Source: Tubulanus polymorphus
Taxonomy: Eukaryota > Nemertea > Palaeonemertea > Tubulaniformes > Tubulanidae
Direction: 5' to 3'
Assembly: GCF_964204645.1 (NCBI RefSeq)
Contig: NC_134025.1
Location: 5,027,001-5,091,000, forward strand
Length of the DNA stretch: 64,000 nt
A program made the translations under genes and the position numbers. Of this stretch, positions 25,289 through 59,680 are shown in pieces; within the stretch, counting starts at the first letter, position 1, and the number at the start of each line of letters is the position of its first letter. The notes beneath the pieces are model-generated. The model did no database searches. It was not told where the DNA came from and saw only the letters and a program-made list of their open reading frames with translations.

Positions 25289-26022
25289 CTATAGGAAAAA
25301 ACGATGGCTTCGTTGAAATGCTTAAGTTAAACCTCACAAAATGTTTACAATTATTCGGAAGAAAATAATGATATGTTCTCCGACGATTGTGTCTTTGTTG
25401 TCTCCTTGTTGTATTTTTGTTGTATTAATTTTTTATGCTACAGGGATGGGTTCCGTTTTATAAAAAATAGCTTATGTTGAGTCAGATTTAAATCGCCATA
25501 CATCAACAGTCTACATGTGGATTAAAGGATTTCTCAGAGAATCAACTAGTCATCAATAATCTGCTGCCTACGCAAAAACCTCGTAATTGGACCAAAAGTT
25601 ATTCTGAACTACGAAAAATTAGTCTGACAATCTGCTGGCTGCCTACCTATTTATCGCGTTATAACAGCTGTTGTGATTGAGATTACCGTTTACACTTCGT
25701 CTGATAGGTATTCCTGAAAGGAGGCTAAAATTCTCTAAAAATTAAGGGTATGTCTTTTACTTTGTTATTTAACCTTTGGAGAACAGACCAAGTATCTTTT
25801 CACCTTTTTATGCTCATTGACTGTCATTTTTTTCGAAACATAATTCATCCCATGTCATATGAAATTCGTATAATTCTTTTACCAAGATTTTTGTTGGTGG
25901 CTTCTGCTTTCGAAGTTAGATTTCAATATGAGGTGGGGAGGCGCTTCTTAGTTCTTGCGGTTTCCTTCAGAATATTTTGAACGACCGTCCTGACTACGTG
26001 TTGAATAATGCTCTTTCAACAG
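25289..26022. other. Upstream region of the small secreted-protein gene
   Basis: No conserved frame is seen. It should contain the 5' untranslated exon and promoter of the 26.0 kb gene, because an acceptor sits 2 bp before its ATG. Confidence 0.5.
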
Positions 26023-26024
26023 GG

Positions 26025-26561: not shown

Positions 26562-27816
26562 GGTAACCCTTCTATCAGTTAAATCACATCGATGTACATA
26601 TATATCGATATTTGTTAATACACTCTAAACGTCTTACATTTTTTGTTGTATATAGGTAATGACTCAACCAGGACAATACCGAAAAAATTTGTAGACATAG
26701 ATTGAACCAAGATAATCTTTTGATTTCAAAGGACTACGGAGTGACCTGGATTTGAAAATTTCAAAGAAATTGATGGAGTAAAACTTCTTGTATTAGAATT
26801 GAATAAAGTCCCTTTTAAGATTTCGCCAGTACGTTGTGCCGCATGCAAGAATCGTTATTGTCTCATATTATTACAGATGTGGGTGCATTCTATCCTATAT
26901 TTTTGTTCTTCTACACCTCAAGTACTGAATCATACATATCGCAAACAGTATTTCACAGTCAGGTGTGCTTTTCGTTCCGCACGTTTAAAATGAGTGGGAT
27001 GATAATCTAATTAATAAAAAGGCACTGATAGTAGTTGACATTCAGAGTGGAAGATTACGCACGACGCCATTAATATTTCCTCTCCCAATACATTTCCACA
27101 CGCGACGGTGATCGATACAGAGAAAATACGTAACGGTTATTCATATGTTTTATTGCCAATTTGAAAAGAAGAATGTACGACACGTCATCATAAAGCAGTA
27201 CACAGAAATACATCATGAAATGACCAGAAGGTACCTTCATCAATTTAGCCACAAATTGATAACAGCACAAGGTGTAGAAGAGTTCTTTTGTTTTTTTTTG
27301 TTGCTCGTTTTGTTCGTCGGCTACTTTTCAGCTATTGTAGTTCAACAGTGTCTGCGTGAGAATGCCGCATATTCTCTTGTTATGATATATCCGACTGGAA
27401 TTTGAATGAAATAACCACCTGTAGTCATCTCAACATTGACAACCACTTCATCTTCCTTGACAGCCTCTTTATTACGTTGGAGACAGATAAATTGGATGAC
27501 GCCTTGTGGGCGCTATTCAAAAAACTTCCTTCGCCGCGCTCTCTCTCTTCGAGCATTGAAATGGATATGTTCTTTTTACTCGAGACGGTATATATGTGCT
27601 ATAAATATTCGAGTTCTTGAAATTCATGAAACATTATCACTTGATTATCATAAAGTTCTCCAAAGGTACGTATGATGAAATAGATATCGTAATATAATAA
27701 ACTTTGCAATGACACTAACTTTGGAGACGTATATAAAAGAAATAGGAAATAGGTTGACATATTTTGGTATAAGTTTATCAAATGTACAAAGTTTCACCTT
27801 GTTCATTTTTTTCCAG
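26562..27816. other. Spacer between the two secreted-protein genes
   Basis: It holds the 3' UTR of the first gene and presumably the 5' leader exon of the second. The short frames on both strands are not convincing. Confidence 0.5.
26802..26807 (+). terminator. Poly(A) signal, small secreted-protein gene
   Basis: AATAAA lies about 240 bp downstream of the stop codon. Confidence 0.5.
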
Positions 27817-31930: not shown

Positions 31931-32805
31931 CTACGTGTCGTCTTGTCCCAATTTTTTATTCAATATGGCCAACGGTCCAACACCACCCTGGAATCCTCCG
32001 CCATTTTGTTGAAACGCCCCCCTTTGGGCCGTTTCGTACAATTGTTTTTGCATCATAGCCAGGGAAATTTTGTTAGCCTGTAAGAAATCCCTCATTGAAA
32101 TCATCTCTCCGGATCCTCTACGCTCTATATCGCTATCGTACGAATCAGCATCGCCATTTGCGTCTGACGCTTTCGTTGACCTGCTAAGGTGACCAGGTGT
32201 AATTGCATTGCGCCGCGGTCGCGGTTTCGGTTTGTAACAACATCGGCAGTCCAGTTTTTTAATCAGCCAGTTAAGAAACTGTTTAATCACAATTGAGGTA
32301 ACGTTGAAAAGACTATATATACAACAGCATCCGAGTACTATAAAAATAAAATTGCCGAATCGGTACAAATGCACGTTGTCGTAATGCGCCCCCTGGCTGA
32401 CGACGTAATCTCCAAAACCGATCGTGGCGAAAGTTACAAAGCAGAAATAGATCGCTTCGAAATAAGACCAGTTTTCGACCGGGTAATACATAGCAGAGGC
32501 GCAACATGCTATCACAACTGCTCCCAGGAAGAGAATAATCATAACCCAATATACAGACGGTTTCCAGGAATCCAGGCTATCATCGTCTGATACCTGCGAG
32601 CCTCGTCTGCCTTTTGGGTCTCTGGACATGAGCCCCTTGCGTCTGAGTTCTCTTTCGTGGATGGATCGTAGAATGTACGCGAGGAAGGTGATTATTCGCT
32701 CCAAGAACAAGTTAAAAAACAGAATGGCACCGGCACAACCGAGAAATCCGTAAAATATGAGCACGATCTTTCCTGGAATCGTTCGGGGTGTCGTCATTCC
32801 AAAAC
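31931..32805 (-). CDS. Two-pore potassium channel KCNK12/13 (THIK) type: shared second exon
   Basis: This exon encodes 290 aa plus part of a split Gly codon and ends at TAG 31931. It starts after a TCATTTCAG acceptor at the second G of the first pore filter (G-F-G-M-T-T). It carries TM2 (I-F-Y-G-F-L-G-C to F-F-N-L-F-L-E-R), a basic loop, TM3 (W-K-P-S-V-Y-W-V onward, then C-C-A-S-A-M-Y), pore 2 with filter T-I-G-F-G-D, TM4 (I-Y-S-L-F-N-V) and a long cytoplasmic tail. The tail ends with G-E-M-I-S-M-R-D-F-L and G-G-V-G-P-L-A-I-L-N, both close to human KCNK13. K2P channels are dimers carrying background K+ current that sets resting potential; THIK channels are inhibited by halothane. Two alternative first exons fit it in phase. 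Confidence 0.96.
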
Positions 32806-33676
32806 CTGAAATGAGAAGAAAAGATTCAATTGGTTTTGAATAAATAAACAAACAAATAGAAATGAATTTTAATGCGACGTCATGCTTCTTCCAATAAAAC
32901 TACGCTCAATCACAAACTAGAATTCAACTATAGTTTTCTTCATTTATTGATTGAAATATTCTCCATCTTTTTTCTCTAGATCTCTGATATCTTGATCTAA
33001 ACCGGTACTTAATAATTGATTCAATTTTCAAGTTAAGTTATTGATACAACTTTTCCGAGCAATAAAATTAATATCAATATCAAAGCTGGAAAATGTGTAG
33101 ATAATAATAACCATAACAGCTGGTAAAGACAAACTGCACTGTAAGTTTTCAATATCTAGCTGTTAATTGAATTTCAAATGATCTGTATCAATTTTGTATC
33201 CGTAAGGTATACGAAGTCTTAACTTCGTTGAAAAAGTCACATTCGAGTATAAAATGATATTCGTCACCGATAGTATTCAGGTTAATTTGATAGGTTAAAT
33301 TCGAATGGTGTAGAATTCGTGTGAAACGATATACGATGGAGTAGGCGTTTGATCGTTTTCAGTTGCATCGTCACTTCGGATTTCCTTTGCTCGTATTAGG
33401 CGCTACGCGTGCAACTGCTACTTCATGGTTCCGAAAGAAAATAAATAAAAGGCAGCATTAGTTCTCAAACAACAAATTGATCGATCGTCAATCAACTGAC
33501 GTCGGGGGGGAAATTCGAGCTTTTTAGTTGAACTGATGCTCTGCTGATAAGCGTGCGTGTTATTGTGTGTCCGCGTGCTAATCGAATAAAGAACGGATAT
33601 ATCGATGATGGGTTGAAATCCAGCGAGGAATGTGAACGAAGCCTTTTTAAAAGGAAGCACTATTTTTTCTAATCCC

Positions 33677-33934
33677 TAGTTCTACTGCTATGATCGCTGA
33701 GGTTATACGTAGGAGCCAGGCCATAATAAGTAGAAATTCGTGCTTTTCCCACAGTGTATCCAACCGAGCCGTATTGACTACCAACAGAATTCGAGTTTTC
33801 AAACGAGTAAACACCATTTCCTGTCAATTGGTTATTTTCAGCTGTATTGACTACTGCTGAATTGCGGATTGGTGTTTGTAATTGTAATTGTGTTGAAGTC
33901 TTTGATTGATTCATTGCCACACCATATGCTTTCT
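33677..33934 (-). pseudogene. Transposed fragment of the large secreted-protein gene
   Basis: The minus strand repeats plus-strand bases about 28309-28553 of the 27.8 kb gene, covering the region encoding N-Q-S-K-T-S to T-Y-N-P-S-D-H. It differs by roughly 15 to 20 residues in 83 and a 6-bp in-frame gain, and the frame is still open. It has no signal peptide and no splice sites at its edges. An 11-bp direct repeat, TTTCTAATCCC, flanks it (33666-33676 and 33930-33940). It lies in the KCNK intron, so it is most likely an inert insertion. Confidence 0.75.
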
Positions 33935-36687
33935 AATCCCTTTTTCTAATTTCTAATTTCCTAAATTCTAAAGAACCACACACATTGTTTCACCTTATGT
34001 TTGATGATGATAAAGAAATGCCATTTCGATTCGTCAGCAGGTAAAAACGTATATCAACGTCTAACATTAAGACCAATATTTCGCGTATTGAACTTGCATA
34101 AACCGAAAGACACTTATAGCTTCGATTGATCATGGATTGATCATGTTCGTTCGTATTCACAGTCACTGATCAGATGAGACAGAGAAAAACTATGAATCCA
34201 ATTTTCTAGGAAAAGATGACTGTTTATGCGCTTCGAATCTTTCCTGGATGAGGCTTGTACAATCAGATTGTCCACTTGGTTACCCGTTGTATACAAATAA
34301 TAGACGGCCAAATAATCCGTTTATAACAAAAACGTCGGTATTTCTGAGAGGGTTATCATTGATTGAAAATAAAGTCATGTGATATCAAAGTTATGTTAAA
34401 CCAATTACTCCCATGACCCATGCATCTGAAACTAGTTCAAGTTATAGTTCCTATCTAAAACCTGTAGTTGCTATCTTGTATTATTACGTATGTATTATTT
34501 CATCCTTCAACAGACAGGAGGGAATACCGAATTGCAAATTTTGCTGGTACCAAAAGATCTCTGTTACATGGTTTTTCTATTGTCGTCGAGTCGGCGATTA
34601 CAATGGTCGCAGCTTAGGTTTATTCGCCATAAAATCGGCCTTATTGCTAAGACTGGCTTTGATCAAAGTGATGAGCGTATAGTAAATGTAACAAGCTAAC
34701 GGCCTAGCGCGGCCAATCAATGTGGCGGGTGTAAAACGCACAAATTGTACTAGGATCTTGAATGCGGTATCTCTACGCCATCAATGTGAATAATGAACAT
34801 AAAAATGGATCAAACCACAGATCAAATAGAACGATACATCGTTCAGGAAATACAGCCTGATATCGCGAGAGATTCCGATATAAATGTGCAAATAGACTGG
34901 TTGTCGGCACCGAGCTCCTAGAAAGGTGAAATTGAGGTCCAGCCAGCCACTCGAAGCCCATCAGTTATCGAAACAATTAGCAGTAATGAGTATATACTTA
35001 TTCAAGGTTGTTCTTGTGGATTGATGGATAAGAAAATCAACTAAGGCTCTCTTTAACCTATTCATAAAAAACACATTTCCCGTCTTAATTCACTGTTCTG
35101 GACGATGCTATTCGGAGGTGAAAGAATTAAGTAAATCAAGACGGATAACTACACAACGTACATGTTCTACTTGGCCTAAGTTCATCACACATCAATGAGC
35201 TAAATATACACATGTATTCGGTCAGATTCCGGTTTCGAGTGTGCTGTTCTCATGGTTAAGTAAGTTGGATATCTTGAATATTAAGAGTATTCAGAAGAAA
35301 ATATAGATTGTAAAGAATAGTATGAAACAAATGAATATCATTCGGTGATTATCCCAGACCAGAGACGTGAAGGTCAAGTTTAGAGTCAATAAGTTTAAAA
35401 TAAATTTGCTCCCGCATGAATTTTGATGATTAAAAAAACTCTTTTCGAGTGCATTATCTCCAATTGTAGATTCAGCTGTTGTAATAGGTTTGCTTTCCGT
35501 GAGTAAATTAATTTGAAAGTTTCTCCGGATCCCGAGGCACGCAGCTCAACTGCGATGCGTCGACGTCGTTCTGATTTCTTCCAAAACGTCGCCTACAAAC
35601 GTCAGCGAAACGATGAATTCTTCTTACACGATTCAAGCGTCGTTTAAATGTAACGGTGAATTAAACGCCCGCCGAAAGATTTATAAGTAATTTCGACAAA
35701 AACCGGACTGACTGAAGAAACCGACTGCACCACGGATTATAACGTCGCGGAGTCGAGCTCACGCTTCAGATGTTTTGTCACTGACTTTCGAGCCGCTGGA
35801 AATAAAATGAAATGATATTTCCTAGCCTTATTAATAACGCGACTAAGCGAAATTGAGACGAGAACCGGAAATTTTTTCCTCGATTCCGGTGAGAAGATCT
35901 TTCAGTAGTCAGGTATTCAGGTCCGAACAATCCGTTCATTAGATTACGATTCGCTCAATGGATGATCGTGAAATCGGAATTAGTAGTTGTATTGTGAGCT
36001 CAGTGAATAACAGCCGTTGCCGGCTGAATTTTACCCGATTATCCGGGCTTTAAGAAGCTTACGACGAACGCCGGGGTTCATGATGTGTTTTATCCTTAAA
36101 CCTTTCGATTTTCTTAGGATCTTGAAGAAAAGTATTACGTAATTTGTAGTTTTTTATGGAAATATCTTTCTTTATTGCCCAAACTGTTGGGGCCCATGCT
36201 GAATTGAGAATTTGAACTATTTACAAAAAAGATAATTAGGCCTATTTATGGATCCTAAATCCCAATCACTTCAGGACGCTACACACGGAATGAAACAGTG
36301 TACATCCGGGTGCTCTGACAATATCTCTCACTTTTCGCTACAGTTCTATCACGAAATGTCCCGTGCTCGACTAATGATTGGGGTTTCTACTAGAAAAACA
36401 TACGGTCTCCACACAATACATTGAAAGAAAACAAGTGCGGTCCTTTATATTGCGAAACTCAACAAAGTACTACGTGCCATGTTCACCATGAGGGAACGAT
36501 TTTCAACGGGCAACAGATCGTTGTTCACACGATATATCGCCGAGAGCTTCTAACCTTCACCCGACCAAATCAGTGCATCGACTCGTTATTGAGTGCTGTA
36601 ATGTATGGGTATTTGCAGGCTGTCAATTATAACTATTCTAGATTTTGGATCCTATTTTGTATTCAGTGAGGTATATTTATGAGTAGA

Positions 36688-36722
36688 AAAATTTGACGTA
36701 TACGACCTATACGTCAAATTTT
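36688..36722. repeat. Perfect inverted repeat, 15-bp arms
   Basis: AAAATTTGACGTATA, a 5-base loop (CGACC), then its exact reverse complement. Confidence 0.9.
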
Positions 36723-37465
36723 AATAGAAAAACGAATAAGTATATCAATCATTGTCCCGAAGAATAATTTCAAAAGTTTTCATTCAAATAAAAATGGTCA
36801 TAGTTTGATAGACGAATATTGATTTTACGAATTATTTGCGTCATATTAAGTCGTCTTCAGATGAACAAACTGTTCGGTCAATTACAACGATGAATCAGGA
36901 CAAAATACGACGAAGTGGATTTTGGCAAGACGACATTTGAGCTACATAAACGCCTACTTGAAACGTGTATTTTTACGATTCATTACACGTACGTCTAGTT
37001 ATGAAGCAGCGCCTGCGGGTATTCGCTGATCGACAGGAAAGTCGTCTTTTTAAATTGTAAAACACCGAGACGTTGGCGTGTATACATCCTAAAACACGTC
37101 TCAGCCGCCTACTGTGGTTACAACTTGCACTATTGACAGGGAACGTGTCTGCTTCATTTTCAATTCCTCGAAGATTGCACGCGATCCATTCGAATAGATC
37201 AGCAACCGGATTACGCCCACACATCGGACGTGTTCAATTCAGTTTTTAAAGTTTTTATTTTGAAAGTAAGTCTGATCTGAAATTGGTTCTTAAGATAGTG
37301 CTTTCATCAGTGTTTATCTTGGACTTAAATAGCTCTTAACTATATATTTGATTGCACTGGAATTATATCAATAGTTACACTTATCGATAACTGTTGATAG
37401 AAAATTTGGAATCATGTAACGGGAATTCTTCAATGATATATAGATATACCGATTGACCAAAATAG

Positions 37466-37588
37466 TATCCTGGGCCAGGTTTTATAGACTGGTATTAACT
37501 TTAACCCAAGGGGCTAAGTCAATTGAAAATGAATTGAGTTAACCCCCGGGTTAAACTCTATACTAGTCTATAAAACTGGTCCCTGATA
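37466..37588. mobile_element. Full-length fold-back element (MITE-like), 123 bp
   Basis: The left half (starting TATCCTGGGCCAGG) and the reverse complement of the right half (starting TATCAGGGACCAG) align over almost 60 bases, sharing TTTTATAGACT and TTTAACCC blocks. The whole element folds on itself. It has no coding capacity. Confidence 0.7.
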
Positions 37589-39567
37589 CATTGGTACCGT
37601 ACATCGAATACGACAGACGATACATCGCTCGAGACCCGTATCTTAGATCTGTGTCAAGTACTGGTCAGAAATGATTTATCGATGATCGCACGCTGTCTGT
37701 AACTAATTATCGATAATTATCTGAACACGGTCGACCAGCTACGACGATGGTCACATTCGATGGCATGCCAATTACGAAAATCGTATATCTAGGAGAGTTA
37801 CGTAAAATCCAGTCGACATGAACCATTAGCGATATGTGTATGAGATCAATGCATTGTGTGAAATTTTCAAACCAATGCTGAACCCAGCATCATCGGCCAG
37901 TTGTCACTGTATATATCAAAACGTGCAGATTGGAGCAAATACGACTGACAAATGTTAATTCTGCGACGTATCTATAATTGGGCTGTCACTTCCGCCTGAC
38001 TTCGTAATCACCCACTGAATTTGGTTGGTTTGTGGTCGCACACATACGCGAAACCATTCTTTCTGTTCGGCTGTGAATGAATTTTGGTATCATTTTGATG
38101 ATAAACTCTTTTCCACCTTTTGCTAAAACATTGATTAGACCGTTTTCGCCAACACGCGAAAAGAATAGGGCTTTACCTGCGGATTAGATCGAAAATACAC
38201 CGATTTGATCTGAATTTAGAAATGGACGCATCGATAATATGGGATCGGAAATCGATGACTACGCGTTTGGCTCAATTGTAATGCGTGGTTTATAATCAAA
38301 TCCTGACACTACGAAGATCCAGCTGCTGCAACCATCGTGGATCGATTTGCGATTAGAATCTAAAGAGATAGGAGCCTACGAATCATTTACTATATTCAAA
38401 GAATATTTCTAAGCGACGGTTTTGGTGTGTATATTGGACATAATGTTTAGCAGTAGCTTTGTACCATAACCATCGCAACGCTTCCGGATGGAATCAATAT
38501 GTCCGACCTGAAATGACCGACCAAAATAGTTCCTCCCAACGCTCACCGAGGCCGAAACGTTTTTCATGGCATGAACATCTTTCCGCAGCCTTGTGCGTTA
38601 GGCCAGACCAAATCAAACCGAGTGATGATAAACACATCGACTTTACGACAACCTGTGACAAATAGCGAGTACCCCATGTAGCGAAAAGTCTAGGCTTTGA
38701 TTAAGTTAAGATTGACGGGAACTTAGAACAGAAATCAAGCCATCCAACTTTTTCACGTCAGTTCAGACACAAGAAACCGTCCGTGGTAAATTGCTTGTCG
38801 ACGATTTTGTCAAGAAGCCACGAAATCCAATCTTCTTAGTTTCATTTCATTGTCGCCTTCTCAAAACCTGGTAATACTAGTACCGAGGTTCTGGTGGAAT
38901 CGATGAAAAATTGGAGTCTGCAATCCGATCTCGCGGTTTGTAATGTCATTTTTAGAAAAAAAAGCAAGCTGTTAGATCTTAATTTTGTTTTAGTTACCGA
39001 TCACAGTGAGTACATAAGGCCCATACACTTCCAGCAGTGCGGATAAGCACTCATTTTTGGTAGATCAACATTTACGTACAGATCATCGCAGGTGAAATGT
39101 CTCGCGCCATCAGCTTTCAGACTATCGTCTTATACGCGGATGGATATAATTGCGTTTATATGCCAATTTAACAGGACTCGCCGTGCGAGGAGAGAACGTG
39201 TAATAGCTGATGGCGGATACAAGCACACAGGTTGCGATTTCCCTTGTATTTATATATAGATAAAGTTACCCAAGGGCATGATGTCAACAAAGTTTGTTTT
39301 TCGTTTTTTATAACTTTATACATTGCTTTGCTATTATAGTGTAGATGGGGCAAGTTAATCTATTGACAATTGAATCATCTCGTAGCAAATGAAGATTGAG
39401 TTGCGAATTCGTGGATAAAAACGCAAAATAAACTTACGTATTGTACGGTGATGGATGCTCGAGGCACATTGGCAATGATTTGTCCAAAAATAGAGAAATT
39501 GAGGAGATTGTCGAAGGATATCAATAGTTCCTTAAGGCTGGATTAGTGTCTCTGTGGAAGCGCCAGT

Positions 39568-39712
39568 CAGGGCCGAATTCGGTTTTCGTATCTAGTCGAC
39601 TAGTGGTCGGAACTAATAACCGAATGCGCATGATTTCCGAACTATTTCCGGAATATAGTTTTCACTTAGTTCGACTATAGTTGACTAACTCGGATAACCG
39701 AAGTTGGCCCTG
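39568..39712. mobile_element. Fold-back element (MITE-like), 145 bp
   Basis: The left end CAGGGCCGAATTCGGTTTTC is mirrored at the right end (reverse complement CAGGGCCAACTTCGGTTATC). Imperfect pairing continues inward for most of the element. No obvious target duplication. Confidence 0.65.
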
Positions 39713-42700
39713 GTTGATGCTGCCTTCGCCGTGGACCTTGAACTTGAACTGTGGACCTATGGACAATTGAATAGTCTTTCCTCAAGTAGTCTCTTTGATC
39801 TGATCGTGGACTCGCACGCAATGTCATCGCGTCCACTGTATGTTATGCCACATGTTCTTTCTATGACACCTCGATATATTTTTCCACCAGTAGCTCGAGG
39901 GGTCGATCTCTTTGCTTGAAACTGCCATCGGTATAGATTATGTGATAAGCGTCTCATATGTCATGTTTCTTAAAATGGCTTTTCGGTATTATTCACACTG
40001 TACGGGTGCCATTTTATTCTATAATCCCTGGATTAACATCTTTCTGTATTAGTTATAGATGGTTTTTGAGATTCCGAAAAATGAATGACGTTTAAGGGTG
40101 ACTGCCGTTAGTATTTACTTCCTATAACTTAACATGCACGTGACGTATCTTCGTCTCTTTCGATGCGTACATAATTTAGTTATCTAGTATTTCGTGACTT
40201 GGGGACAGATCAGTCACTCGTTCACTGTCTCTTTCTGGTCGCGCGGGATTCGGTTACAATTACAGCAAATCGTGAAAATTGTGATCCCCTCAATGATTGT
40301 CACTTTCTATTAGTCATCTGTAAGATGGTGCAGAAACGATGACAGTTTCAAGTACGCAGCTATCGCAAGTCGGAAACCCGTCATCGAGCCAATCTTAACA
40401 CCTCTATGAGCGCCGAGTCCAGTTACTGGTTTTTAAAATGTCTCATTATTTCACGGCTTAGTCTGAGTAAAACCTTGACAAGAGAGCGCATACGGCCAGA
40501 ATTACTGAAGGCAGTCTTCGCCGAATGCTTCGAAGAAATCTGACGATATCCTCATGGCTCCCGGTGTCAGATTGTTTTAGAATGCCACGTCATTACTCAA
40601 TTCTAGTGAGATTTACGACGCCGAAACGTAAATAATATCTCCGTATTTTATTATTTCCGTTTTATCCCCCTTACAAAAGGTGTATTTGTGAGTTCTTCGA
40701 AAATTTGAAATTCTGTTCATTTTATCGCAGTAGTTCGAATTATAGCCAACTGAAAACACAGCACGTCGTTCGCGTAAATAGCGCGTCGAATCAGAAGTCA
40801 CTTCGAACATCGAATTTCGTTTTTTTTCTCTCGTGGCCCATTGAACAAATCAGTGCCATTTCATCAGACAGTGCGTCTAGATGCGATTAAACAGAAAATT
40901 CAATTCCGAACGCCGACGAACAAAATGAAATCAGTTCCGTTCGCTTAACGCTCATTAAATTGTGCTCGTGTCCGTTCTTCGCCGGTGATGCACTTATCCC
41001 ATGACAAGGCATCGACGACGGACGGGCAATGTCTGGTAGATGATAAGAAAATACGATAATTAATACTAATAAAACATGAATGCAGGCACGGCCGTTAAAT
41101 TAGAGCAATTACAGGCAATCGCACGAGCAGTTTCGCAATTCGTGAATTTTCGGTGTTGCAAGGTAATTGCGGGATTTCACAGGGTAGGCGCGCTTGACTA
41201 GACATCATACCGGGTATTAAAGTGCTTATCGGAGTGCCATCGATTGCCTTATAACTGTCGGAGAACACGTGAGAACCCTGCGGCATAAAATTCAAGACTG
41301 TGTAATTCACCTGAGGTAGAAGAGTGTATAAATACATCGTGAAAAATCGACTTCATTAGTAAACGTCTGTAGAATTTCATAAAAAACAAACAAAAAACGA
41401 CGTTACACGTTTACGCTTCAAACACTTAAGCATATTCTAAAACGACTATCCAATGACACGGAAATGCATCTAAAATTATTTTTTTCATGTTTTTTGTTAT
41501 GCGTAAAGGTTCGTTAGCCATTGACGCCATGAAGTCATAGGTTACATCAGAAAAATCAAGTTATTTGACGTCTGTATCTTAAGATGTATTATTGGCACTG
41601 GCTACAAGAGGCAGTTTGTACCGCAATGGAGAAAATACTTTTTTAAGAGAACTGGGAACTGGTCATTGACATTATCTATATACCAGGATTTCTAACCCGT
41701 TCAAATTTGCCAGCAAATGTTGTTTTCGGTTGGTCGGTTACACATTTATCTCATCGATAAATTTTAGTCTCACGATTGCCCTCACGAGGCCTTTTAGTTT
41801 CAATCATTTTCGGGATTAAAATTCAGCACGCCATACATGGACTTAATAAAATGGGAATGAATGAATAATGAAGATTTTATGGTTTTGCTAACCATCAACA
41901 AATCATGAGTCAACGCGCTACGCTCGAGTTCAATAGATTAATAAAACATACCACACGTATACTTAATATGACCTATTATGATTATTTTCATGAGGAAATC
42001 CGTTGCTGGTGATAGTGTGATATCTCATGCTTTAGAGGGTTACGATAGATTTGATATTCTGACGAAATATTACATTTTTGATGATTTCTTTGTTCCACAG
42101 ACACGCGGAGGTAAAATGACGTATCAAATATAAGACCCGTCTGGAGACAGTTACATCCGCTCGGATGGAGACGACGCCGTAACTGCGGAAATTCCATCCG
42201 ACACGATAAATTCATTGGCGTCATAAGTGCGTGTTTTATTCCCCAATTCATTCGCTTTTCGTTATTCATAATTAATGATTCAACCACAAACCTGAATTAT
42301 TCACTTCCAACAAAAATTAGTCGCCGAATACTTCCAAAACTATTAAATGCAAAACGTCGAAGCAAAACCATATATACATATTTGAAAGAAAAGGAATCGA
42401 TGAATATTTCGGTCAAGAAAAATATAGCATATAAAAAGATTGATGCCCATCTATTATCAGTTATGAGAAGATCCCTTCAAACTTGCCGTCATTAAGTGAT
42501 ATGACGATCAACCATGGAATTTTTGCACCGTTTGAATTGGTGAACTTCAGAAATTCGGCTAAAAATGTTTCATCTTATTTTTGCGAACCGACACAAATTC
42601 ACTATCTATTGGATGCCCAATGATTATAAATCGGTCAGTGTTGATACGTATGTATAATCGGTTATCAAATTTCATTGAGATTTATATATTACATCAAAGG

Positions 42701-44709
42701 TCACCATGGGAACCACTATGCGATACAGAGGTCAACGAAATAGCAATTATTGACAGGCAATAAATTCGGCTTATTTTCCAATCCTGCTGTGCCCGACAGA
42801 ATTGTAGTCTTGAATTGCGTGGAGAAATGCAAGTTAGAGGAAGTGCCGGAGCAAATTACGAGAATCTGCCGCCTGTTGCTTCCGGCGCCATTAAGTCGAC
42901 TTCTCCCGAAAAATAGGTGATAGTCACACTGTGCAGATATATACATATTCTTCGAACACTTCTCAAGAGAAGGCGGTGACGTGCTATTGTGTATACATTA
43001 TTTATATATGACACGAAACGAAATAAAAAATGAATCGGGGCAAATCATTTCCGGATAATCATCAGATTCAGATCACGACTTCAAGCAACAATTCGATACG
43101 CCAGGCGACAAAGGCGATTTCGTTTCTTCATAAGATTTATCATATCTCACGATACGTGCAGTTGCATACCGTAACTTATAATATACCTTAGTCTCACCGA
43201 TATAATCTATACATATAACTATAACCGATCCGCAGATTTGAGGTATCTATGCATCATGCTGTGTTTATCATTAAAATACACTTTAACGTGCAGGTGCCGA
43301 TTCAAAGTACTGCGTTCAAGTAGTTTTTTTAAGCGAATGTAATATGAATCATCGTGTTCAGTGAAGAGCTCACAAAACAGATGTGGATAGTGCAATTTTA
43401 CAACTATCAAACGCTTTTCTATGATCCTGTAAGATATTCCGCTATTGTAAACAGAAAAAAAAACGATTTTTGGATTTGCAAAAGTTCCAGTTAAACCATG
43501 GACTCCAAAACGAGTAGTAGAGTGCGTCGTCAAACGCACTGTGTATTCTGTATATCTAGACTTGTGACATAAAACCTGAATTTCAATCTAATGTGATTTT
43601 ACAAAAGCGGAATTATGATTAGTTGCTACTGACAACCCTATATCACGCTCAATGATTTCCACAGTTCAATTTCATCATATAGCTTTGTGAAAGTGTGGAT
43701 TGCATATCAACACGGGAGGATATTATTGTTTCGGGATAGACTGTTATTGTCCAACGCTTTTAATAGTCAATGGTGCGGGTCTTTTTCCCAATCTATTTCC
43801 GAAGGGACAGCCTGCGCAATTGATTAATTATTTATCAAGGTGACAACGGGCTGAAAGTGGATATCGTGTCACACGAGATAGAACTTAAATACACCTAAAT
43901 CCATCATCGTTTACCCATTGCAGCGCGTTTCATGTGCAACTGAACAACGCCAGACAATGTTCGACGACGTATTCCGTTTCAGACGAGAGAGAAAGCTATC
44001 TACTAGAAAGATCATCGCCTATCACTTCCGATGCAAACATAATATGAGTGCCCTGAAGCTACGAAAAGAATCTACACAATTGGTTGTATTTTCGTATCAC
44101 CGCGATATCAGTCTGCGGGGGAAATATCCACGTTATAAGCAACCAATGTTGATATTGATAATCGCAGCTAAGCGCAACTATACACATAGAAAAGACCAAC
44201 AGCTGTTTCTCGGACTGTTAAAACCGACATGTTCTCCCATAATCGGTTCCAAAGGCTATTTAATCAGCAAATTGATCGCATAATTTATCACACTGACGTC
44301 CGTACTATTTTTTAAATAGTACGATCCGCATTTAATGCTTTAGAGATGAACACAAGGAATGCATTAAATCAATAGTGTGTAGACTTTAAGAGCGAGTTCG
44401 AGAAGGATTTTTTTAGAAGAACCTGATAACATTCGACCAATCCAGTCGCGATCAACAGAATGCAAAAGCTACACAATATAACATCGTGGATCACACTTCA
44501 ATCGCAAATGAGGACAGCTATAAAAGTTAATTACTGCGATTAAAGCGAATTGTTGAAGTTATTGAACATGAGAAGTCTGTCGCAAGCAATTAATTACGTC
44601 TATGAAACCTGACCATAGATGGTTTTAAAATGAAAGACAACTTCTGATTAAGATTTAGAATTCCAGCGAGACAAAGTTGCTATGCAAGGCACGTTTGCGT
44701 TCTACTTAC

Positions 44710-45043
44710 CGATTGTTGAAACCACCGTTCCAACAAAATAGAAAGATCCGGAAAAATCCCATCGTTCTCTTTTATCATCGATTATTCCTGCTATACTCGC
44801 GTCGGCGTGATGTTTTAGTAAATTTTGCAATTCCGTCTCGTTAACTCGCGGGTTGTTATCCAAAAAGCGTCGTAGGGCTTCGTGATATCTACTCCTTTCG
44901 TTCAGTTCGTTTTCGCGTTCTAAAAACATGAACACAGACGCCCCGGATAGCATGTATATGACCATGACCAGCGCCAGCAAAATAAAGCGGGCGTTGTCCT
45001 CCTTCAAGTGAAGTGCGGAACAACATCCATCTCTTGGAGACAT
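44710..45043 (-). CDS. KCNK12/13-type channel: alternative first exon 1a
   Basis: ATG at 45043-45041; 111 codons plus the first G of a split glycine codon, donor GTAAGT. Joined to the shared exon it gives a 402-aa channel (human KCNK13 is 408 aa). It encodes a short cytoplasmic N-terminus with the THIK-typical E-D-N-A-R-F, TM1 (residues about 19-40, then F-L-E-R), the extracellular cap with a glycosylation sequon N-E-T and no cysteine, and the first pore helix R-W-D-F-S-G-S-F-Y-F-V-G-T-V-V-S-T-I-G. The filter glycine codon is split by a phase 1 intron, the conserved K2P intron position. The exon is intact. Confidence 0.93.
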
Positions 45044-48000: not shown

Positions 48001-51000
48001 TTACGTGTTATTTCATACAATCTTAAGCATGAACTTATCCGATTTGAAAATAATCAAAATCATTCAAAATGAAAGGTCATATTCATAACAGAATTTACAT
48101 TGTCGTGCCTGTGAAAATTGCTGCATTTTCAGCTACCGTATTCATGGCATTGAGTGTTTATTTTTAAAATTCAAATAATCTATTTCAATAATAAACCACC
48201 TCTATCGTCAAAATGTTGGGGTACACGCGTACATTAAGCTAATTTTACCTGCGCGAGTAAATATTCAAGTTTCGTGACTCGACATTCTGGTAAGAATTCC
48301 AGAAGTTTCATCTATTATTCAATATAGAACGATCATTTCAGTCAATTTTCTTAAACAGCGCCATTACAATTTGTAGTCGCTGAAATGCCGAACGTTAATG
48401 ATAGCACGATCGCGTGATTCAGTCGGTTTCATTTCAATCAACCACACACGATCGGATCAATATCACGAAAAAAGACTTGGGTTAAGTTCATAGCTTTTAG
48501 CTTTTTCTTATGCTGAGCACTTTCTTCGTCGACCTGATTTAGCCCTGATTTCTCTCTTCGTTTTAGATTGACAAAAATATGTTCAATTCAATGGTTAGTT
48601 CATGATTAGTTCCATTATTAACTACGAAGGAAATGTGCCATAAATTTCTATAAGAAATCCGCATTTCAGTTTTATCGATCATGTTTCTGGGGAAAAATTT
48701 GATCAATCTTCAACTTTCTTAGAGAATATGATATTTGAATAAATGGTATAGTTTTTGCTCGTAATATCAGCATTTCATATCCACCTTAAAAGTCATAATG
48801 TCCCCAACCAGAAGTCTAATTCTTTGTATGAGAAATTCTGGCAAATAACACGTTTTAAAATGTTTCCATGCATGCGTTGACATTTACTAGGAATCTTTGT
48901 CAATCTTCAAGTCATACCAGTTCAAACAATACAAAATACATAATTCACTTTGAATACGTTAGAACCGTGTTCATGTATTCAGACATGAATCTGGAAATAG
49001 TGGAGACACAGGATCGAGGGCTGTAGTCAAATATCGCTTGAATGATGGATATGCAAGTTCAGATTCTGCGTTCACGTGTACAGCCGACCCCCGGATGTCG
49101 GTAAAACTGTTTGTCAAGCGCTGCAACACGAAAAAAATTACTGAAATAGTGTAATTAATCCGGTCTTAAGCACGTTTTGATCGATCGGCGCGATAACCGT
49201 AACTGCTATAAATGCATCAATTTCATAATTTTTCAAGATGTCACCGAATGAACGCGCAACATCCGCTCAGTCGTAGACAGTGCGAAGATTAATGATACAT
49301 TATATCTACGGCAACGAGTGTCAACGCTCTCTCAGTTTCGAGCAGGGCGATGATGGAATTCTGTTTGAGTACTGGTAGAATATATACCACAGAGACCTGT
49401 ATGTGTGTGAGTGAGTGAGTGCGAGAATGACTATTCCAATAGGTGTGGGAACCTTAGGAATAGTCATTATATATTCCTTGATCTCGTAAGTTGCTCAGTC
49501 CACCTGGGTTTTCATCACCATATCCCATGGGTCTCACTTGACATCACAGGCAGACTGTGGCTAGGGCATCATCGAGCTTGTTATAGTTTCCAGGTTTGAA
49601 ACAAATGGATAACGTACAACGCAGTCTCTCAATGTCGAGTAGATGACGTGACGACGATGGATGTCGTAGCGAAAATATACATGTACAGGAATATGGAATG
49701 CTTTTACCTCATTTTGCACGTCATGGAATTAACTTCACTGACAGATGCAACGCATTTCGGAATCGTTGTCTTGCCATGCGAAAATCCATCAATGTCAGTA
49801 TCCTTTCACCGCACTGCATTTCCGTCGTTCATGATATTTTTATACTGCACACGAGTCTGATAAAATCTACCTCGAGCGGAAACGTGGCTTGTCTCTTGAC
49901 GACACAAGATACGATGTTTTGTAGCTCATACAAAGGATGAATAAAGATAAATTGAGAAATATATAAGAATTCTAGTAGAGTAAATTCTACTTAGAACGCA
50001 AATCAACAGTATCTTAACATATTGTAACATTTTATATTTTTGGGTATATCGCTACTTTAGGCCTGACAGCGTATAAAAGTCAGGAAAGTAAACAGTTGTT
50101 CAGCTTACTGAATCAAACAAACAAAATTCCCCACACATCCTTTACAAATCTTCCGGTGCATTTAAATTTGCCATTTACGTTTAATTTTCACGGATTATTT
50201 CGTTCGAACATCGACCCCGGAGATAATTATTTGCTACATCGAAATATAGCAGATAAGAGGAGAAGAGGGAGAACACCGGCCGTTGTAATTAGTGTTGAAC
50301 GGAATACTCATTACTCTTCAACTGGCGTGACTTACATGATGTACGGTCAATCCACCACAAACATGGCTGCGCGGTGAAGATAAGACGATAATCATTTCTG
50401 GATCGTCTGCGGCGAACAATCGAAACAGCGGCCATCGAAATTTAATAAAACTAAAACGCATCGAACACCTCGGTAATGATGCACAATCTAGGATGTTAAT
50501 AGCGTTTTTATGTGGCAATAAAAAGATTAGCGAAGAAAAAGATTGAGTGCACATTACTTCCATTAGTGGCTATGGAAATATATTGAGCATCCGTTGAGAA
50601 AGAATATAAGGAACTTAAGTAAATAAACAAAGGACATTTTCCCTTCCTACCTGCCCACCTCCTTCTCAAACTTCCAATCTGTCTCCTTCCCTTCCAACCT
50701 CCCTCTGGCGAACACATCACGGATTAGAGTTGGACGAAAAAATATGAAAACCACCTGCCGCGTATTTTATTAACACCACGATCGTCACAAATCATAATGT
50801 TTGATTGCGCCGATACGCTGGATTCAATACCAGGAACTCTCTGTAGAGCTATTTCTTCAAAGCTCTCTTCTAAAGTAAACGACATTATCTATAAATGTAT
50901 TACATTGAATGGTCTTTGAATAAATTACTTGTTGATTTTGAATCCAATTCCAGGTTATATCATCTATGAATTATGTATGATTTCGCATATTACATTACTG

Positions 51001-54000
51001 CCATGCAATTATTTTCAGGGCTTTCATTGGAAATAAGAATCATTAGCGTAGTTACATCTAAATGGCATCTAAAATATCTTATATTAGTCGTATGTTCCGC
51101 AGGTGGTTGGAAGGCTTTAATCATAGACTTTAGAAAACCGCTAGCACTGCGCAGCGTAGGCTGTTAGGGCTTATCCATTAAGCCCAATCACCAGTAATAA
51201 TCTACGTCTTCTGATTTATACAGAATCGTGGTGATATAAAGAATAATGTTTGGGGTATTGTACTAGCCGTCGTAGTAAACTGATCCCACGAAAAATCGAA
51301 TTAATCATCTGAAACCACGGGGGAGAGGTGGCAAGATGTGCCGGGGTTCGATCAATCTTATCAGATTCCACTCGACGTAAACCATTAAAATTCATTGCCG
51401 AGATATATCGGTCCTAATACACTTTGTGATGAATGTCAGACACTATAACGATCTTGCGAATAGAGTACATGTAAATGACGATGGAAACAGAAACGAAACT
51501 TCGCGCCACAGATCTTTTCTATTGCGATTCAGATTTGCGATCATCAACGAACAATCACGATAGGGCATTTGATTTGAAGCAGCCTTATACGCCGGTATTG
51601 ATTCGATTCGCTCCGTGTTAGCTTATCGAAGCGATGGGTAAACATTATATTATCACCATATCAACAATAAGAAAAAATAGATTTGCTTTCATATTTTTGC
51701 AACGCCCGAATGGAAACCATTACCACGCGAACGAAAACCTAGTTTGTCTAGGTTTGCAAAGACGCCTGAAGAATAACGTACAAAAAATATTGCGCATTGA
51801 GTTACTAAAGAATCGCTCCAGGCTAGAAATAATAGGGCCACTTGGTACGCTTCTTTTCGTAGTTTATCAATCGTGGGGTTTTTTTCTCGTGGATAAACCT
51901 GTATTATGGTTACGTTCCAAGAAAGAACCATTCCAAAATGTAGGTTTTACGTACTAGGCAAATACAGACACGTTTCCACCAGATCAAGTATGGATATTTT
52001 GGACAGAAGTAGTGAGATTTTTTAGTAGTACCCTTTAGAATAGTATTTTGATGAAATGGATTCCATACTTTATACCTAGCGCCGTTTGCGACTCCCTTAC
52101 TATCCTAGTTCATCAAGTTAACGTGATAGGATTATAGCAAATGCTACCACAACATTGGTTTAGTTCGTTGCTCGTAATTTACCTCAGAGATTTATCAGAA
52201 TTATCAATCTGAATTAATGTTATCAGAAAAACGCGGCTTCAATCAGAGCAGTAATTTATTATATATTCGGTCGACACATGTTCCCCGTTATTCTGCTAAT
52301 CTAGCCGACATTGCCCTAGCGGTTTGGTCTATGGCTGCAGAACACACTGCCAACACTCGGCGGATCTTTATATGCACGGAACTGCGAATATTAGCCATAA
52401 AACTAAGTTTTCAAGATCCATAAAAGAATTATACATCCCGGAGTGCGTTTGCGAAAGCTATAAAAAGTAAATATAAATTAATGCACATTTGTTGTATCAG
52501 AAATAATTGCCTAAAAGGCAGTTGCGTATAGTTAAATTCCGCGCGTCGCCAGCGATATGAAGAATGGTTCATTAGTGAAAATGAAATTTCTTCACTTTTA
52601 GGAGCATTCGTCCTATGACGTTCCATGTTATAATGGTAGTTTTTTAGCGTAAGACGCCGAGCTGATCTCTTTCCTAGACACAGTTAACGAACCGATGGAA
52701 ATTCACCCACACCCACCCACTGGCACTCGCTAAGGATAGAAAACGAATGTTTTCGTAATGCAACTTGATTCTTGTAGTATGTTCCTAGTCGTGTTAACAT
52801 AAACACAAAAACTGCACTACTCCATTCATCGCAAAAGCAATCTCACAAACCCCAACTATCTCAAGTACGTTTGCTTCATTCATCTCTTCCTTAACTTGTT
52901 CTTCGATTACACACGTCCAGTGTCATATTTACACGTAAGAAACCCCAAACATTAAATGATGATAAGTGAATATTAGAAAATATCGGTTTCGATTTTCAAC
53001 AGATTTGAAGAGTAATAGGAACTAATTTTGACTAAACTGGTATACTTTTGGTGTGGTTATTTAGGTAAACACATAAATGGTTCAAGTACAAATGTAGATT
53101 GAATAGGAACGCTTATACACATATACTGTCTCATCAATTCAAACAAATATTGTACATATTTTACATAATATTTTACTAATTTGAATTAATGTTCATCCAG
53201 CCATTTTGTCAATAACTTGCCCTTGCGGTGTCACGACGAATTTAAGCATACATTATTGAAGCCACTCTGACTTCACACGCACCCATTGGGAGAGCTAATG
53301 TGTTGAATTAATGACATGCCTTTATTAGCGATGACCACCATTTTCCCTTGATGTTCCTGTACGCTCGTGTAGTCTGTTGACTAATACTTATCAACGTGTT
53401 GAAGAGTTGTCCAGGGACTCATTCGACAAGACACTAACGAAACATTTTACTGCCCTCGAATATCGAGTGTTACCACTTAATCCACGGTATTCCAACATTC
53501 ATCAATCATTTTATTCATATATTTGACCAATTTGAAACTAACACAGTTGGACAAGATATGGTAATGATTGCTAAACTATCTGATTTGAAATGTGCATGAA
53601 TACGTAGGAAATGATTATTTTGAATTTTGTAACGTATATTTAATAGGGATTTAGATGCGTGAGGAAAGACTAGGCTACCCCCATTGAAACAGTTGCAACG
53701 TTGATTCAAATACAGAATTCTAGTTCAATTTTTCGGCACTTTCCGATGCTAGATTCTTATTCAAGTTTGTATACGCATAGTTTCCCAGTCAAATCAGTTA
53801 TCTTATTCTGCGTAACGATGTTTTCATTGTATGGCTATCTCTGTGCTACAAACCTACACAAGCATCTGCGTATCTTTCTTCAATACGAAGATCCAAAAAA
53901 TGCGACTTAAAGATCAACGGGATTGCAACCGATCGTTATCTCATGCACCGCCACTTCATACGAGGTATCACAGTAATTCTAGCGCATGAAATCGTGTATA

Positions 54001-57000
54001 TGTGGAACGAATGTTAAATAATGTAATATTCTACACAATGCCTATATTAGCGTATATTCTATACAATAACCTAGATTAGCTCTCAAAGCTCAAATTTACC
54101 CTGATTAGGTTTAATATGTTTACATCTAAGTTAATTTCTTTGCAAATGACCCGGCTACATTGATACATGAGCACTTAAAGAGAGCTCCGATATAGCTCAG
54201 CAGACGTATTATAATGTTTTCAGCATAGAAAAGAAAAGCACAATTTCGCACTCATCTCAAGTCAATCTTATGATTATCATTGTGCATTTTACAGCTAAAA
54301 TCCATTTCAAAAATGAAAGTCAAACATGATTCCATTCTCGCACTATTTGCATATATAAATCTTCCATCTATATGTAACTCAATCTGTGCTTTCCGTAAGT
54401 TTATTTGACTATTATTCGCTTGAGATTCGTACTTCGAAATTCCGATGTATTTTCATAAGAGGGTACGTCAATGTTATGGTTGAAGATATATAAAGCGATA
54501 TGGTCTGCTGGGATGTTTGCCTGGCTTCTTATCGACGGTGGAATTGCGATGGACGAATATTGATAGAATCGTCGAAGCTACAGGAGGGTACCACGCTGCG
54601 CTACTCCACGCAATTGAACTTACGCTCGTGGTTCAGATGGGTACAGTGTTATCAAGGAATAATTGAAATAAGAAATAACCTCATACGAAATGGATAATTA
54701 ACGAATTTATCACCAACACAGTTACTAGTAACTTTGTATTCCGATCAGAGTGAAACCTGACGTTTCTACGGATAATCTGCTTTAATCAAAGTACATTTTA
54801 TTTCTAACAATCCTTCGACTGATAATTCCAATTACGTCTTACATTTCTAACTATGTCGTTTGTCAATAATACCTAAGTTTACCTACTCAGATTCAGATCC
54901 CCCAATGATCGTCTTGTTGCCCTTTATGGTTCGAGAATCGTCCAAAGGCAATGTGGTGCCCGAGTGACGTGAAATTTCAATTCCGAATGATACATAACCA
55001 ACCTAATTAAAAAAAAGCAACCCGGAGTATAATTGCGAATACAAATATTAGTCGTGTAGTACACAATGACGTTTAGTTAATGCAAATGTCATTATTCCTT
55101 GTTGATTTCCCCCCAACAGATCAACAGATATTCTTTTGCATTATTCTCTCTACTGTCAAGTGGTTTTCCGATGAAACTTCGGCGAATAGAAGAGGGCTTA
55201 GTATTTTTGTGAAACTGGCAATATCTAAAAGACTATGAATTGTAGAAAGGTGACTCATTGCTGGTAATTCAACATCCACATTCACAAACATGACGAGTGG
55301 AATCTGCTGAAAATGCAGACCTCATTGTCTCTAAATGAACAAATCCCTCGAAGGGATCGGTAATGAATAGATAACGAGGATATTATTACCATTTTTAGAT
55401 TCGGATCAATTGAATTAAGTTGAAGCCGCTAGAAACTTCTCCCATTCGGTTGATTTAAACGGACTTTTAACCGATAGCATTGTTTTACTAAATTTTTTTT
55501 CGGGGAGTCGCGGTATCTCATTAATCAGAAATTCTTTTTTCCATCACAAAATGTGTATGAATATCACCGTGTATATGGACAGAATCCCAGTAATCGCGTC
55601 AAACACGGTGTATGGGATCACGATTCAGTCAGACTTGAGTTGCGTGAGCAAGAAAAATTACTTTCGAAAATAAGTCACTATTTAGATTGATGGTGATTTT
55701 GGCTGCCAGAAATACACGAAGCGACAGTCATAATTAATGCTACGGCAGTCAGCTATCACTGACACTTTGATACACAGGGTGAAACTGTCACCGAATATGT
55801 GACTCGAAGGTCAATACCAAAGAAATTATCATGCGGTGCGCATCTGCTATCCTCCCAGGACCCTGTCAGCATTCATACATTTCATCGTCTATTCGAGAAC
55901 TTTTTGAACACGTTTTTCGCTAGTCGAATGTTCCGGGAAAAATTGTTGATTATCCGTTAAGAAAAAACTGTTATCCTACTTCGAACAAGAATTATATCGT
56001 TTGGCATTGTCGCGCAATTCATTCTATTGCGGCAATTAAAATGATTAATTAAAAGGCTATAAATTTTGTGCGCCAGTGCCAGTGGAGCTGCGAGCACTGC
56101 TTGTTCGCCAGCACTATAGAATGAATAGCAACTGATACCATTTGGCCAAAACACTATCAATTATTGCAGTAAATGGGTAATAATGAACAAACTCTAGGGA
56201 TAAATGATGACAAATATGTTTGAAATAAGACAACCGCAAGCTGCTTGTGTGGATTGATCATAATATGAGCAATATAGGATTTTGCAGTATAGGAAGACTG
56301 CAAGCCATATATTTCATTTCAGACATATTTTTCAGCGGGGATTTCGTGAGTGTTCATAAAAGCCCTCTTATATATTTATATCTTCAGTGATCCTTTAAAT
56401 AAGTTGCGATTCTGTAAATATCTTGGCCTTTAATAGATTATCGAAGACGCATCAAGAATCGAAAAATATGTGTTACCACTGAAAATTCGGTCACGGATTT
56501 GTCGATGCACGGGTTGTAAGCGATTAAAAGTACTTTTAGTAAAATATATGCGCAGAAACGGGCGACCATGACTACGTAATCTATTCTATCCAGATTCTTG
56601 GTCGTGTTTAAAAACTAGTTATTTGGATATTATTGATATTGTCAACGGTAATGAACCTGAGATAAACACGGTCCCTTATTCCAGTAGAGTTGTCGCAGCC
56701 AATCTAATCCACGCTACCGATACCTAACGCAGGACTCAATTTTGCTAGTGACTTTCTGTGCTTATTAGTAAGTTGATGGATGTGTGGCAGTAGAAAGCGA
56801 TATATTTCCGGCAATAACGCCGAGTAAGTGGTACTGGCTGAATGAACTAGACCTACTTCTCATTTCCAGCTGCCATTTCGAGCCAGGCTATATGGTCAAT
56901 CATCAACGAATGAAAGATGCCATCAGATGTCGCAGATCGTTCATTCTATCTGAAAGATGTGAACGGACCGCGCGCACACAATACGTCGCTAGCGAAATAT

Positions 57001-59349
57001 CTATATTTCCAGCACTTCAAAGTACAATATCGAATGAGCCATTATCTATAAAACAATCGTTACAGCCATACTTCAAAGTCCGTACGCGTTTTGATATTGT
57101 GACACCTTAGCATCAGTATTTCAATATATTTATGAATATTTGATCCTAGTAGTGTCGATATGAACCGCGAATGATGAATAATTCAACATGGAACGTTTTC
57201 CCACTTCATCTTCTCCAACTCTTCTTTTTCTTTTTCATTTATCCATAATATTCATTATCAATTGACCTCTAAATGGTCGCTTCGAAAGTATAGAAGAGTA
57301 CATGTTAATAGGCGTTTCAAGTACGAAGGGTCTTATCGCCAAATACAATATATTTTCTAATAATGGATTAATAAAACACGTAAGACATAGACTCCAATAC
57401 ATTTATTGTATAAGTTTTTCATATAAAAATGTAATTTTAGAATTTTCCCAGCTTCCTTGGCATTCTTGAAATGCGTATCGATTTGAAATTTCGTCATTAT
57501 TGTAGGCATATTTACATAGCAATTTACGTTTCATGAATCTTACGCGCTTCACGAATCTTCTCAAGCGTATGTTTGATTATCAAGTATTCATAATACCTAA
57601 GCAAATTTCCGATGAGATCTACACAAAACAGCCAATAGAAAGTACCTCCCAATGTCGTGCAGTCATCTGTTTCACTCAATACGTGGCTCACTAATAATTA
57701 ATTCGATGATTTTGGCGAATCGCTTCTTCTTCGAATGACAAAAGGTCATACCGGAGTAACCAGAGTGAACACGCGTAGGCCACATTAATTAATCAATGCT
57801 TTACATCTTAAATCTGATGAACATACTGCGGGTGTGCGGCTAAACAGACCTCTGGTCACATCATCACAAAAGATTCAAATTGATATCCCCTGATGCGTGT
57901 ATATAACAGTTTCAACAAAACGTAAATAATGTATATTGAATTGTAGTAATATGAAGACCTGCTTTACTATTGTAAAGTGAGAAAGTGTTTTGAAAATTCT
58001 CTAATCATTCGTTGGCTTGATATAACCATCTATTCGAAATTTGTTTTAGAGTCCATGATACAATGTACGACTTATAAATCATCTAAGCCGTTCCATAGAT
58101 ATAAGTTAATCAAACGCCCGCAGAGGTTGAAGTCATTTATATTGATTTTTTAAAATGAGTAATGTAAATCATATCGAAAACCGAGTGTTCAAGAATATTA
58201 TATTATATATATATTTAGAATATATAGTTAGAATATCAAGAATTTTTTCAAATACCAATCGTGTCAATCGTTGTGGTAGTCAACGCGTGGGATATGCACC
58301 AGAGAAGACCTTAAGAACAAGCTACAAAGAAGCATTCGGACTTATACACGTGGAAAATCGGAAAGAAACTTAAACAACGGACAATGTGATCTTAGTTCTT
58401 TGTAAATTCTATGTATGAAATCAGGCAGTTAACAAAAACCAAACCCCTCAGTCGCTAGAAGGTTCAGAAACCGGAACTGAAATTTACATTTATTTTCTTC
58501 GAATCAAACCAGAAATTCTGGACCTTTTATATTTCTTACTCCACATTCAAAATTTAAGTCCCCTGTATGTTTCCCGGCAGGTGAGTCGGGTTTGTAAGGG
58601 GACACATTAGATAAATAAGAGATTGACAATATGAGAGTAAGTACTATGAGATCACGTTAATGAATTATAAGCTATTAAGTCAGCCAATTATACATTTGCT
58701 ATTTACTAAATTGAAACTAGTTCCTTGAAGTTTCATCACTTTTTCAAGTGTCAATTCATTTAATATACCGTTCACGAAAGTTTCCGAAAGTGAGCAGATT
58801 AATGTAAAATCTGTCTGCTGTCGGTGACCAAAAATCGATTCTATTGGAAGAAAGAAAAACGACGATTAATCTTTTCATTGTTCATTAACTGCGCATATAT
58901 ATCTGAATAACCTGTGCGGCACCAACAGATGGGTACGTATGTTGACAATCGAAAACGAAAGCTGTGAGCGAAGCAGCCATTTATTTACGTGTCAAGATTT
59001 GATAAATACGTTATACAATATGTTAGTGAACAACGAAATAGGCGTTTTTTTATAAAACAACCAAATTCATTTTTGAATAGATATTGCACTAGTTGTTTTA
59101 TAGCATTGTTGCAAGTTTTTTTTGCCAACAAAAGAAAATAATTTGATTGACCACGTGCCAAATTGCGTTCGTGTTGATCAGAAATTTGTCCGTGGAATGA
59201 AATGAATTGTCAAACATTTAATGAGGATTTGATTAGAACTTGGAATGAAAATTCATGCTTCGAAAATATGAAAAGTAATTTTAGCACTTCGTCGCGAAAT
59301 GTATATTGTTGAAATAAACTAGGCATGTAATTTATCAAAGTACGCTTAC
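45044..59349 (-). other. KCNK intron segment between first exons 1a and 1b
   Basis: 14.3 kb with no recognisable exon. I looked for a second copy of the shared exon (TM2 to C-terminus) here and found none. There is a 43-nt hairpin at 49426-49468 and a pyrimidine-rich stretch at about 50640-50705. The promoter for exon 1a should lie just right of 45043. Confidence 0.65.
49426..49468. repeat. Short hairpin, 12-bp perfect outer stem
   Basis: AATGACTATTCC at 49426-49437 pairs exactly with 49457-49468, and an inner AGGT/ACCT pair extends the stem. It is too short for a usual microRNA precursor. Confidence 0.7.
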
Positions 59350-59680
59350 CTATTGTCGAAACAACGGTTCCCACAAAATAGAAAGAGCCCGAAAAGTCCC
59401 AGCGCATTCGTTTATGCTCCAAAAATCCAGCAGTAGTCGCTTCTGAATGTAATTCCAACAGTTCAAATAACTCCGTTTGATTTATATCCTGGTAACGCTT
59501 AATGAAGCTATTCAGAGACTGCAGGTAATTTTTCCGTTCTAGGATCTCATTGTCCCGTTCCAAGAACACAAATAACGTCGCCCCAAACAGCATGTAGATG
59601 ATAAGCACAACCGCCAGAAGAAAAAAACGGGCATTGTCTTCCCTCAAGTTCAAACGAGCGCAACAGCCGACGTGGTTCAT
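59350..59680 (-). CDS. KCNK12/13-type channel: alternative first exon 1b
   Basis: ATG at 59680-59678; 110 codons plus the first G of the split glycine codon, donor GTAAGC. Joined to the shared exon at 32805 it gives a 401-aa channel. It has the same layout as exon 1a: E-D-N-A-R-F, TM1 (L-L-A-V-V-L-I-I-Y-M-L-F-G-A), F-L-E-R, a cap with sequon N-Q-T, and the identical pore helix D-F-S-G-S-F-Y-F-V-G-T-V-V-S-T-I-G. The cap differs strongly from 1a. The frame, donor and conserved residues are intact. Either it is an alternative first exon of the same gene, or the remnant of a tandem copy whose second exon is gone. I favour the former. Confidence 0.85.

Follow-up and report, generated by a model that had tools for sequence, protein, structure and literature searches.

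K2P (two-pore-domain potassium) channels set the resting potential, and their extracellular cap affects conductance, block and gating. Among them, the THIK channels carry a K+-selective leak current that is inhibited by halothane. Vertebrates encode them in two genes, KCNK13 (THIK-1) and KCNK12 (THIK-2), each with two coding exons, a long intron and one coding first exon, and the phase 1 intron lies within the codon of the first glycine of the selectivity filter. Variable homologous first exons with their own start codons, joined to a constant downstream part, are known from UGT1A and the clustered protocadherins. Alternative upstream first exons and promoters have also been described for a K2P gene, twk-40 of C. 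elegans, whose isoform-specific mutants differ in behaviour (PMC9049526). We analysed 64,000 nucleotides (nt) of Tubulanus polymorphus DNA (NC_134025.1, positions 5,027,001 to 5,091,000; hereafter the window) and describe a nemertean THIK gene in which one second exon serves three first exons, whereas each vertebrate THIK gene has one coding first exon. The alternative exons of twk-40 only add N-terminal residues, and the first transmembrane segment (TM1), the cap and the first pore (P1) helix are common to all its isoforms (PMC9049526), unlike the arrangement reported here, in which these parts themselves would be exchanged.

The predicted product of first exon 1a spliced to exon 2 matched human KCNK13 over nearly its full length (expectation value, E, 3e-134; 451 bits; best match in PDB), placing the two in the same protein family, while the next K2P subfamily scored about 108 bits. 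The C-terminus encoded by exon 2 aligned to the end of human KCNK13, including the GEMIS...GGVG region. Because of the difference between 451 and about 108 bits, the predicted gene product is a THIK (KCNK12/13) K2P channel with two pore domains, closest to KCNK13, and the full-length match bears out the THIK-type assignment made in an original prediction for this stretch.

Positions below follow window numbering unless contig C1 (that of the window), C5 or C8 is given, and all genome searches covered the whole 268-Mb assembly of one animal. Exon 1a has 334 nt, with an open frame of 111 codons plus G, and ends at the donor ACAATCG/GTAAGT (slash, splice site). Exon 1b has 331 nt, with 110 codons plus G and the donor ACAATAG/GTAAGC. 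Exon 2 has 875 nt, with 290 codons after the split glycine, and is preceded by a strong phase 1 acceptor, TTTTCTTCTCATTTCAG/G. All three first exons, including exon 1c beyond the window edge, end in ATH G/GTR and exon 2 starts after TTTCAG, which places an intron in phase 1 inside the codon of the first filter glycine. Joined to exon 2, exons 1a and 1b gave predicted products of 402 and 401 amino acids (aa), respectively. An in-frame stop lies 27 nt upstream of the ATG in 1a and 24 nt upstream in 1b, and therefore each of these exons would start its own protein. The original prediction had described these three exons, and its coordinates, strand, lengths and intact frames were exact on re-reading; its phase 1 ends in a common filter glycine, its good donors with a matching acceptor and its two product lengths were likewise reproduced.

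Table 1. Features of the THIK locus, the two other K2P loci with several first exons, and further features of the window
Feature	Position	Strand	Content
Shared THIK exon 2	31931..32805	-	Rest of filter 1, TM2, TM3, pore 2, TM4, C-terminus, stop TAG
Alternative first exon 1a	44710..45043	-	ATG, N-terminus, TM1, cap, P1 helix, first G of filter glycine
Alternative first exon 1b	59350..59680	-	Parts as in 1a; protein 58% identical to 1a
Alternative first exon 1c	C1:5093728-5093365 (window-equivalent 66728-66365)	-	Intact; 2.4 kb past window edge
TASK gene	C8 first exons 1121341 and 1144156, exon 2 1185811	+	Two first exons, one exon 2
Divergent K2P gene	C5:7214806-7228962	-	Four intact first exons, single exon 2; largest such array seen
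Multi-pass membrane protein gene	256-1555 and 5430-6969	-	Two tandem copies
Exons resembling STE24/ZMPSTE24 protease	16419-17958	-	Candidate, recognised by eye
First of two open reading frames with a common start motif	25932-26558	+	HG(I/L)SLKGL(S/T)RGP start
Second of two open reading frames with a common start motif	27679-29814	+	HG(I/L)SLKGL(S/T)RGP start; 712-aa open frame
Inverted 258-bp copy	33677-33934		90% identical to 28307-28558

Within the part of the intron that lies in the window, none of 69 open reading frames had a Pfam match, and unrelated genes within the introns were rejected. About 0.9 kb upstream of exon 2, the THIK intron contains an inverted 258-bp copy of part of the 712-aa open reading frame region (Table 1).

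Searches of the assembly with exons 1a and 1b gave three close matches, which all lie on C1 and share one orientation. The third was exon 1c, which comprises 121 codons plus G, ends at the donor ACCATAG/GTAGGT in the same phase and filter-glycine codon, and would give a 412-aa product with exon 2. Over the matched stretches, it shares 69% of its protein residues with 1a and 61% with 1b. Thus, the earlier proposal that alternative first exons share one exon 2 stood, with their number corrected from two to three. A search with THIK exon 2 found this exon only, the next match being another K2P exon with 38% identity, so that the single matching exon 2 claimed for the window is the only one found in the whole assembly. 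Exons 1b and 1c could instead be parts of distinct genes, with second exons that the assembly lacks or that have diverged beyond detection, as assemblies can omit or collapse sequence and runs of unresolved bases (N) may hide stretches. This is extremely improbable, since neither the window nor the following 9 kb (73 kb around the locus) contains any N, the exon 2 search and a genome-wide scan for the pore-domain family gave no further pore exon near the THIK locus, and the order and orientation of all exons fit one gene. A second exon 2 for 1b or 1c was accordingly rejected on the exon 2 and pore-domain searches, and the single-gene reading, which a separate exon 2 serving 1b would have contradicted, stands.

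We then compared the coding sequences of the three THIK first exons. Pairwise protein identity was 58-69%, whereas the proportion of synonymous differences was saturated (pS 0.83-0.93) against nonsynonymous proportions (pN) of 0.23-0.27. Chance is excluded as an explanation because this protein identity persists despite saturated synonymous change; in a simple neutral simulation, both frames were open in only 71 to 100 of 20,000 runs. Identity was highest in the P1 helix (94-100%), intermediate in TM1 (72-86%) and lowest in the cap (38-50%), and all three caps carry one N-glycosylation sequon at the same position (NET, NQT and NKT). A recent tandem DNA duplication was rejected, as the matches in a self-comparison were confined to 57-61 bp at the P1/donor ends of the first exons, and the THIK duplications are therefore old. 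FastTree support among the THIK exons was weak (0.625), and the tree did not settle their branching order. Judged by these substitution patterns, the THIK first exons are old and maintained, with strong coding constraint. Lone first exons would also result if whole genes were duplicated in tandem and then lost exon 2, and 1b and 1c might on that account be unused remnants of once complete THIK genes; however, intact frames, kept donors, saturated synonymous change and a conserved P1 helix in all three make this very unlikely, and the same layout at two other loci, one of them with four intact exons, would need decay to have been arrested many times.

The first of these loci is a TASK gene on C8, whose exon 2 lies about 64 and 41 kb downstream of its two first exons; its spliced product matched KCNK9 and KCNK3 with E of about 1e-109 to 1e-112. 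For a second TASK gene, at C8 13.35 Mb, one first exon and its own exon 2 were found. The second locus, a divergent K2P gene on C5, was found with a DNA pattern of limited sensitivity, consisting of the P1 end followed by a donor, for which the reversed control gave zero matches. Its four first exons, with last bases (donor G) at 7221547, 7223985, 7226330 and 7228449, span about 7.5 kb, and exon 2 (7215491-7214806) lies downstream of all four in the 17 kb read. All are phase 1, have their own ATGs and are 36-52% identical to one another. A genome search with them returned the four themselves and two distant single matches at other sites; only one exon 2 of this type was found in the genome. 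In total, nine first exons were found for three shared second exons (three at THIK, two at TASK and four at the C5 gene). Other K2P exons of the genome start at the same split-glycine acceptor, and the pattern scan, with its limited sensitivity, showed one first exon for each. The unusual layout described in the original prediction is thus real, but it is not peculiar to the THIK gene.

The two C8 TASK first exons were nearly identical over about 97 nt of the N-terminus and TM1 (2.5 synonymous differences in 22.5 sites), whereas the cap had diverged (15 in 25 synonymous sites; 50% amino-acid identity), and synonymous change differed between TM1 and the rest (Fisher P about 0.001). This pattern suggests that gene conversion acted between the two exons over part of their length and left the cap untouched. 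For the TASK cap, positive selection was not supported, with the nonsynonymous rate exceeding the synonymous rate (dN > dS) in only 3.6% of bootstraps.

At all three K2P loci, as in UGT1A and the protocadherins, several homologous intact first exons feed a single downstream part. Unlike in those systems, what is swapped here is one half of a pore-forming ion channel, with the cut falling within a codon of the selectivity filter, and the arrays are small (2-4 exons) and recur across several members of one gene family. The variable-first-exon principle would here be applied to a swap of TM1, cap and P1 in K2P channels; a literature search, incomplete for subscription papers, found no K2P gene that swaps exons of this kind. 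It is likely that three K2P genes, one THIK, one TASK and one of a third subfamily, each use a first-exon array to exchange the N-terminus, TM1, cap and P1 helix at the split filter codon, with combinatorial diversity of leak channels as a possible outcome. If so, few genes could yield many cap variants and mixed dimers, and the arrays suggest that some animals diversify leak channels by exon arrays besides having more genes. With the filter glycine split in phase 1 by the intron, a duplicate of any first exon would be instantly compatible with the shared exon 2, and the recurrence at three loci makes this intron a plausible enabling feature.

For the THIK locus, we propose one gene with three alternative first exons, one common exon 2 and probably a separate promoter for each first exon, a reading to which we assign a probability of roughly 0.85. 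Each first exon has its own start codon, with an in-frame stop shortly upstream in every case, and probably its own promoter; the chosen exon would be joined to exon 2 by cis-splicing, in phase 1 and within the codon of the first filter glycine. The exon transcribed would then set the N-terminus, TM1, cap and P1 helix on a constant body, with 1c adding an arginine-rich tail. The exon anatomy thereby supports the core of the earlier interpretation, a THIK-type gene in which TM1 and cap are swapped onto a common channel body.

We scored acceptor-like sites upstream of the first exons with a generic matrix, whose values in bits are rough. The best upstream scores were 4.5 for 1a, 4.3 for 1b and 2.4-5.7 for the C5 first exons, compared with 6.1-14.2 for known K2P acceptors in this genome, and the weak sites upstream of 1a and 1b favour promoters. 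No TATA box was found within 400 nt of the first exons. Two points weigh against the proposed reading. First, 1c has a 7.4-bit acceptor-like site 19 nt before its ATG (such sites are expected about 1.3 times per kb by chance), so a spliced 5' untranslated region (UTR) is possible at 1c, and the choice could in part be made by splicing from an untranslated exon upstream. Second, another exon 2 that has diverged strongly or falls in an assembly gap is strictly possible. Extended to all three exons, the first point becomes an alternative in which a common promoter and an untranslated exon further upstream serve the locus and splicing picks 1a, 1b or 1c as mutually exclusive internal exons. Exon 1a also has a weak site 14 nt before its ATG (4.4 bits), and the TASK gene with a single first exon (C8:13346433 region) has a strong 11.7-bit acceptor-like site 116 nt before its ATG, which indicates that 5' UTR introns may occur in the K2P family of this animal. 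Such splicing is nonetheless unlikely to account for the whole choice, as the 200 nt upstream of 1b hold no acceptor-like site scoring more than 4.3 bits, no such site ahead of a C5 first exon exceeds 5.7 bits, and distances of 7 to 15 kb separate the THIK first exons, all of which have an ATG of their own.

On the reading with separate promoters, the swap could change channel properties in the cap and at the N-terminus. In human THIK-1, the cap residues R83 and R87 are located over the filter, and reversing the charge of R87 increases whole-cell current about sevenfold (PMC12263422). At the aligned positions, none of the three nemertean first exons encodes arginine, unlike the human cap; the R83 position is I, T or V. 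The net charge of the cap is -3, -3 and -2 in 1a, 1b and 1c, respectively, compared with +3 in human. The N-terminus of 1c is arginine-rich, with RFR and RRR and a net charge of +8, whereas 1a and 1b have no RXR. Vertebrate THIK-2 is described as silent, probably through an N-terminal retention signal together with low open probability (PMC8616229); its surface expression rises when residues 2-30 are deleted, and it assembles with THIK-1 into functional heterodimers (PMC10132538). The 1c N-terminus is reminiscent of the intracellularly retained THIK-2, although the motif alone does not show retention, and a pair of surface-going and retained isoforms may exist as a testable idea rather than a result. 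Two isoforms present in one cell could form mixed dimers. These natural variants of cap and TM1 on a constant body would be ready-made chimeras for asking about cap function.

The window also contains a gene for a multi-pass membrane protein resembling fuseless, present as two tandem copies whose DNA is 96.5% and 84% identical over the stretches that match, and exons that resemble a STE24/ZMPSTE24 protease. Between these and THIK exon 2 lie the two open reading frames with a common start motif, the longer of which has a signal-like start and a Gly/Asn/Tyr-rich composition, like a secreted structural protein.
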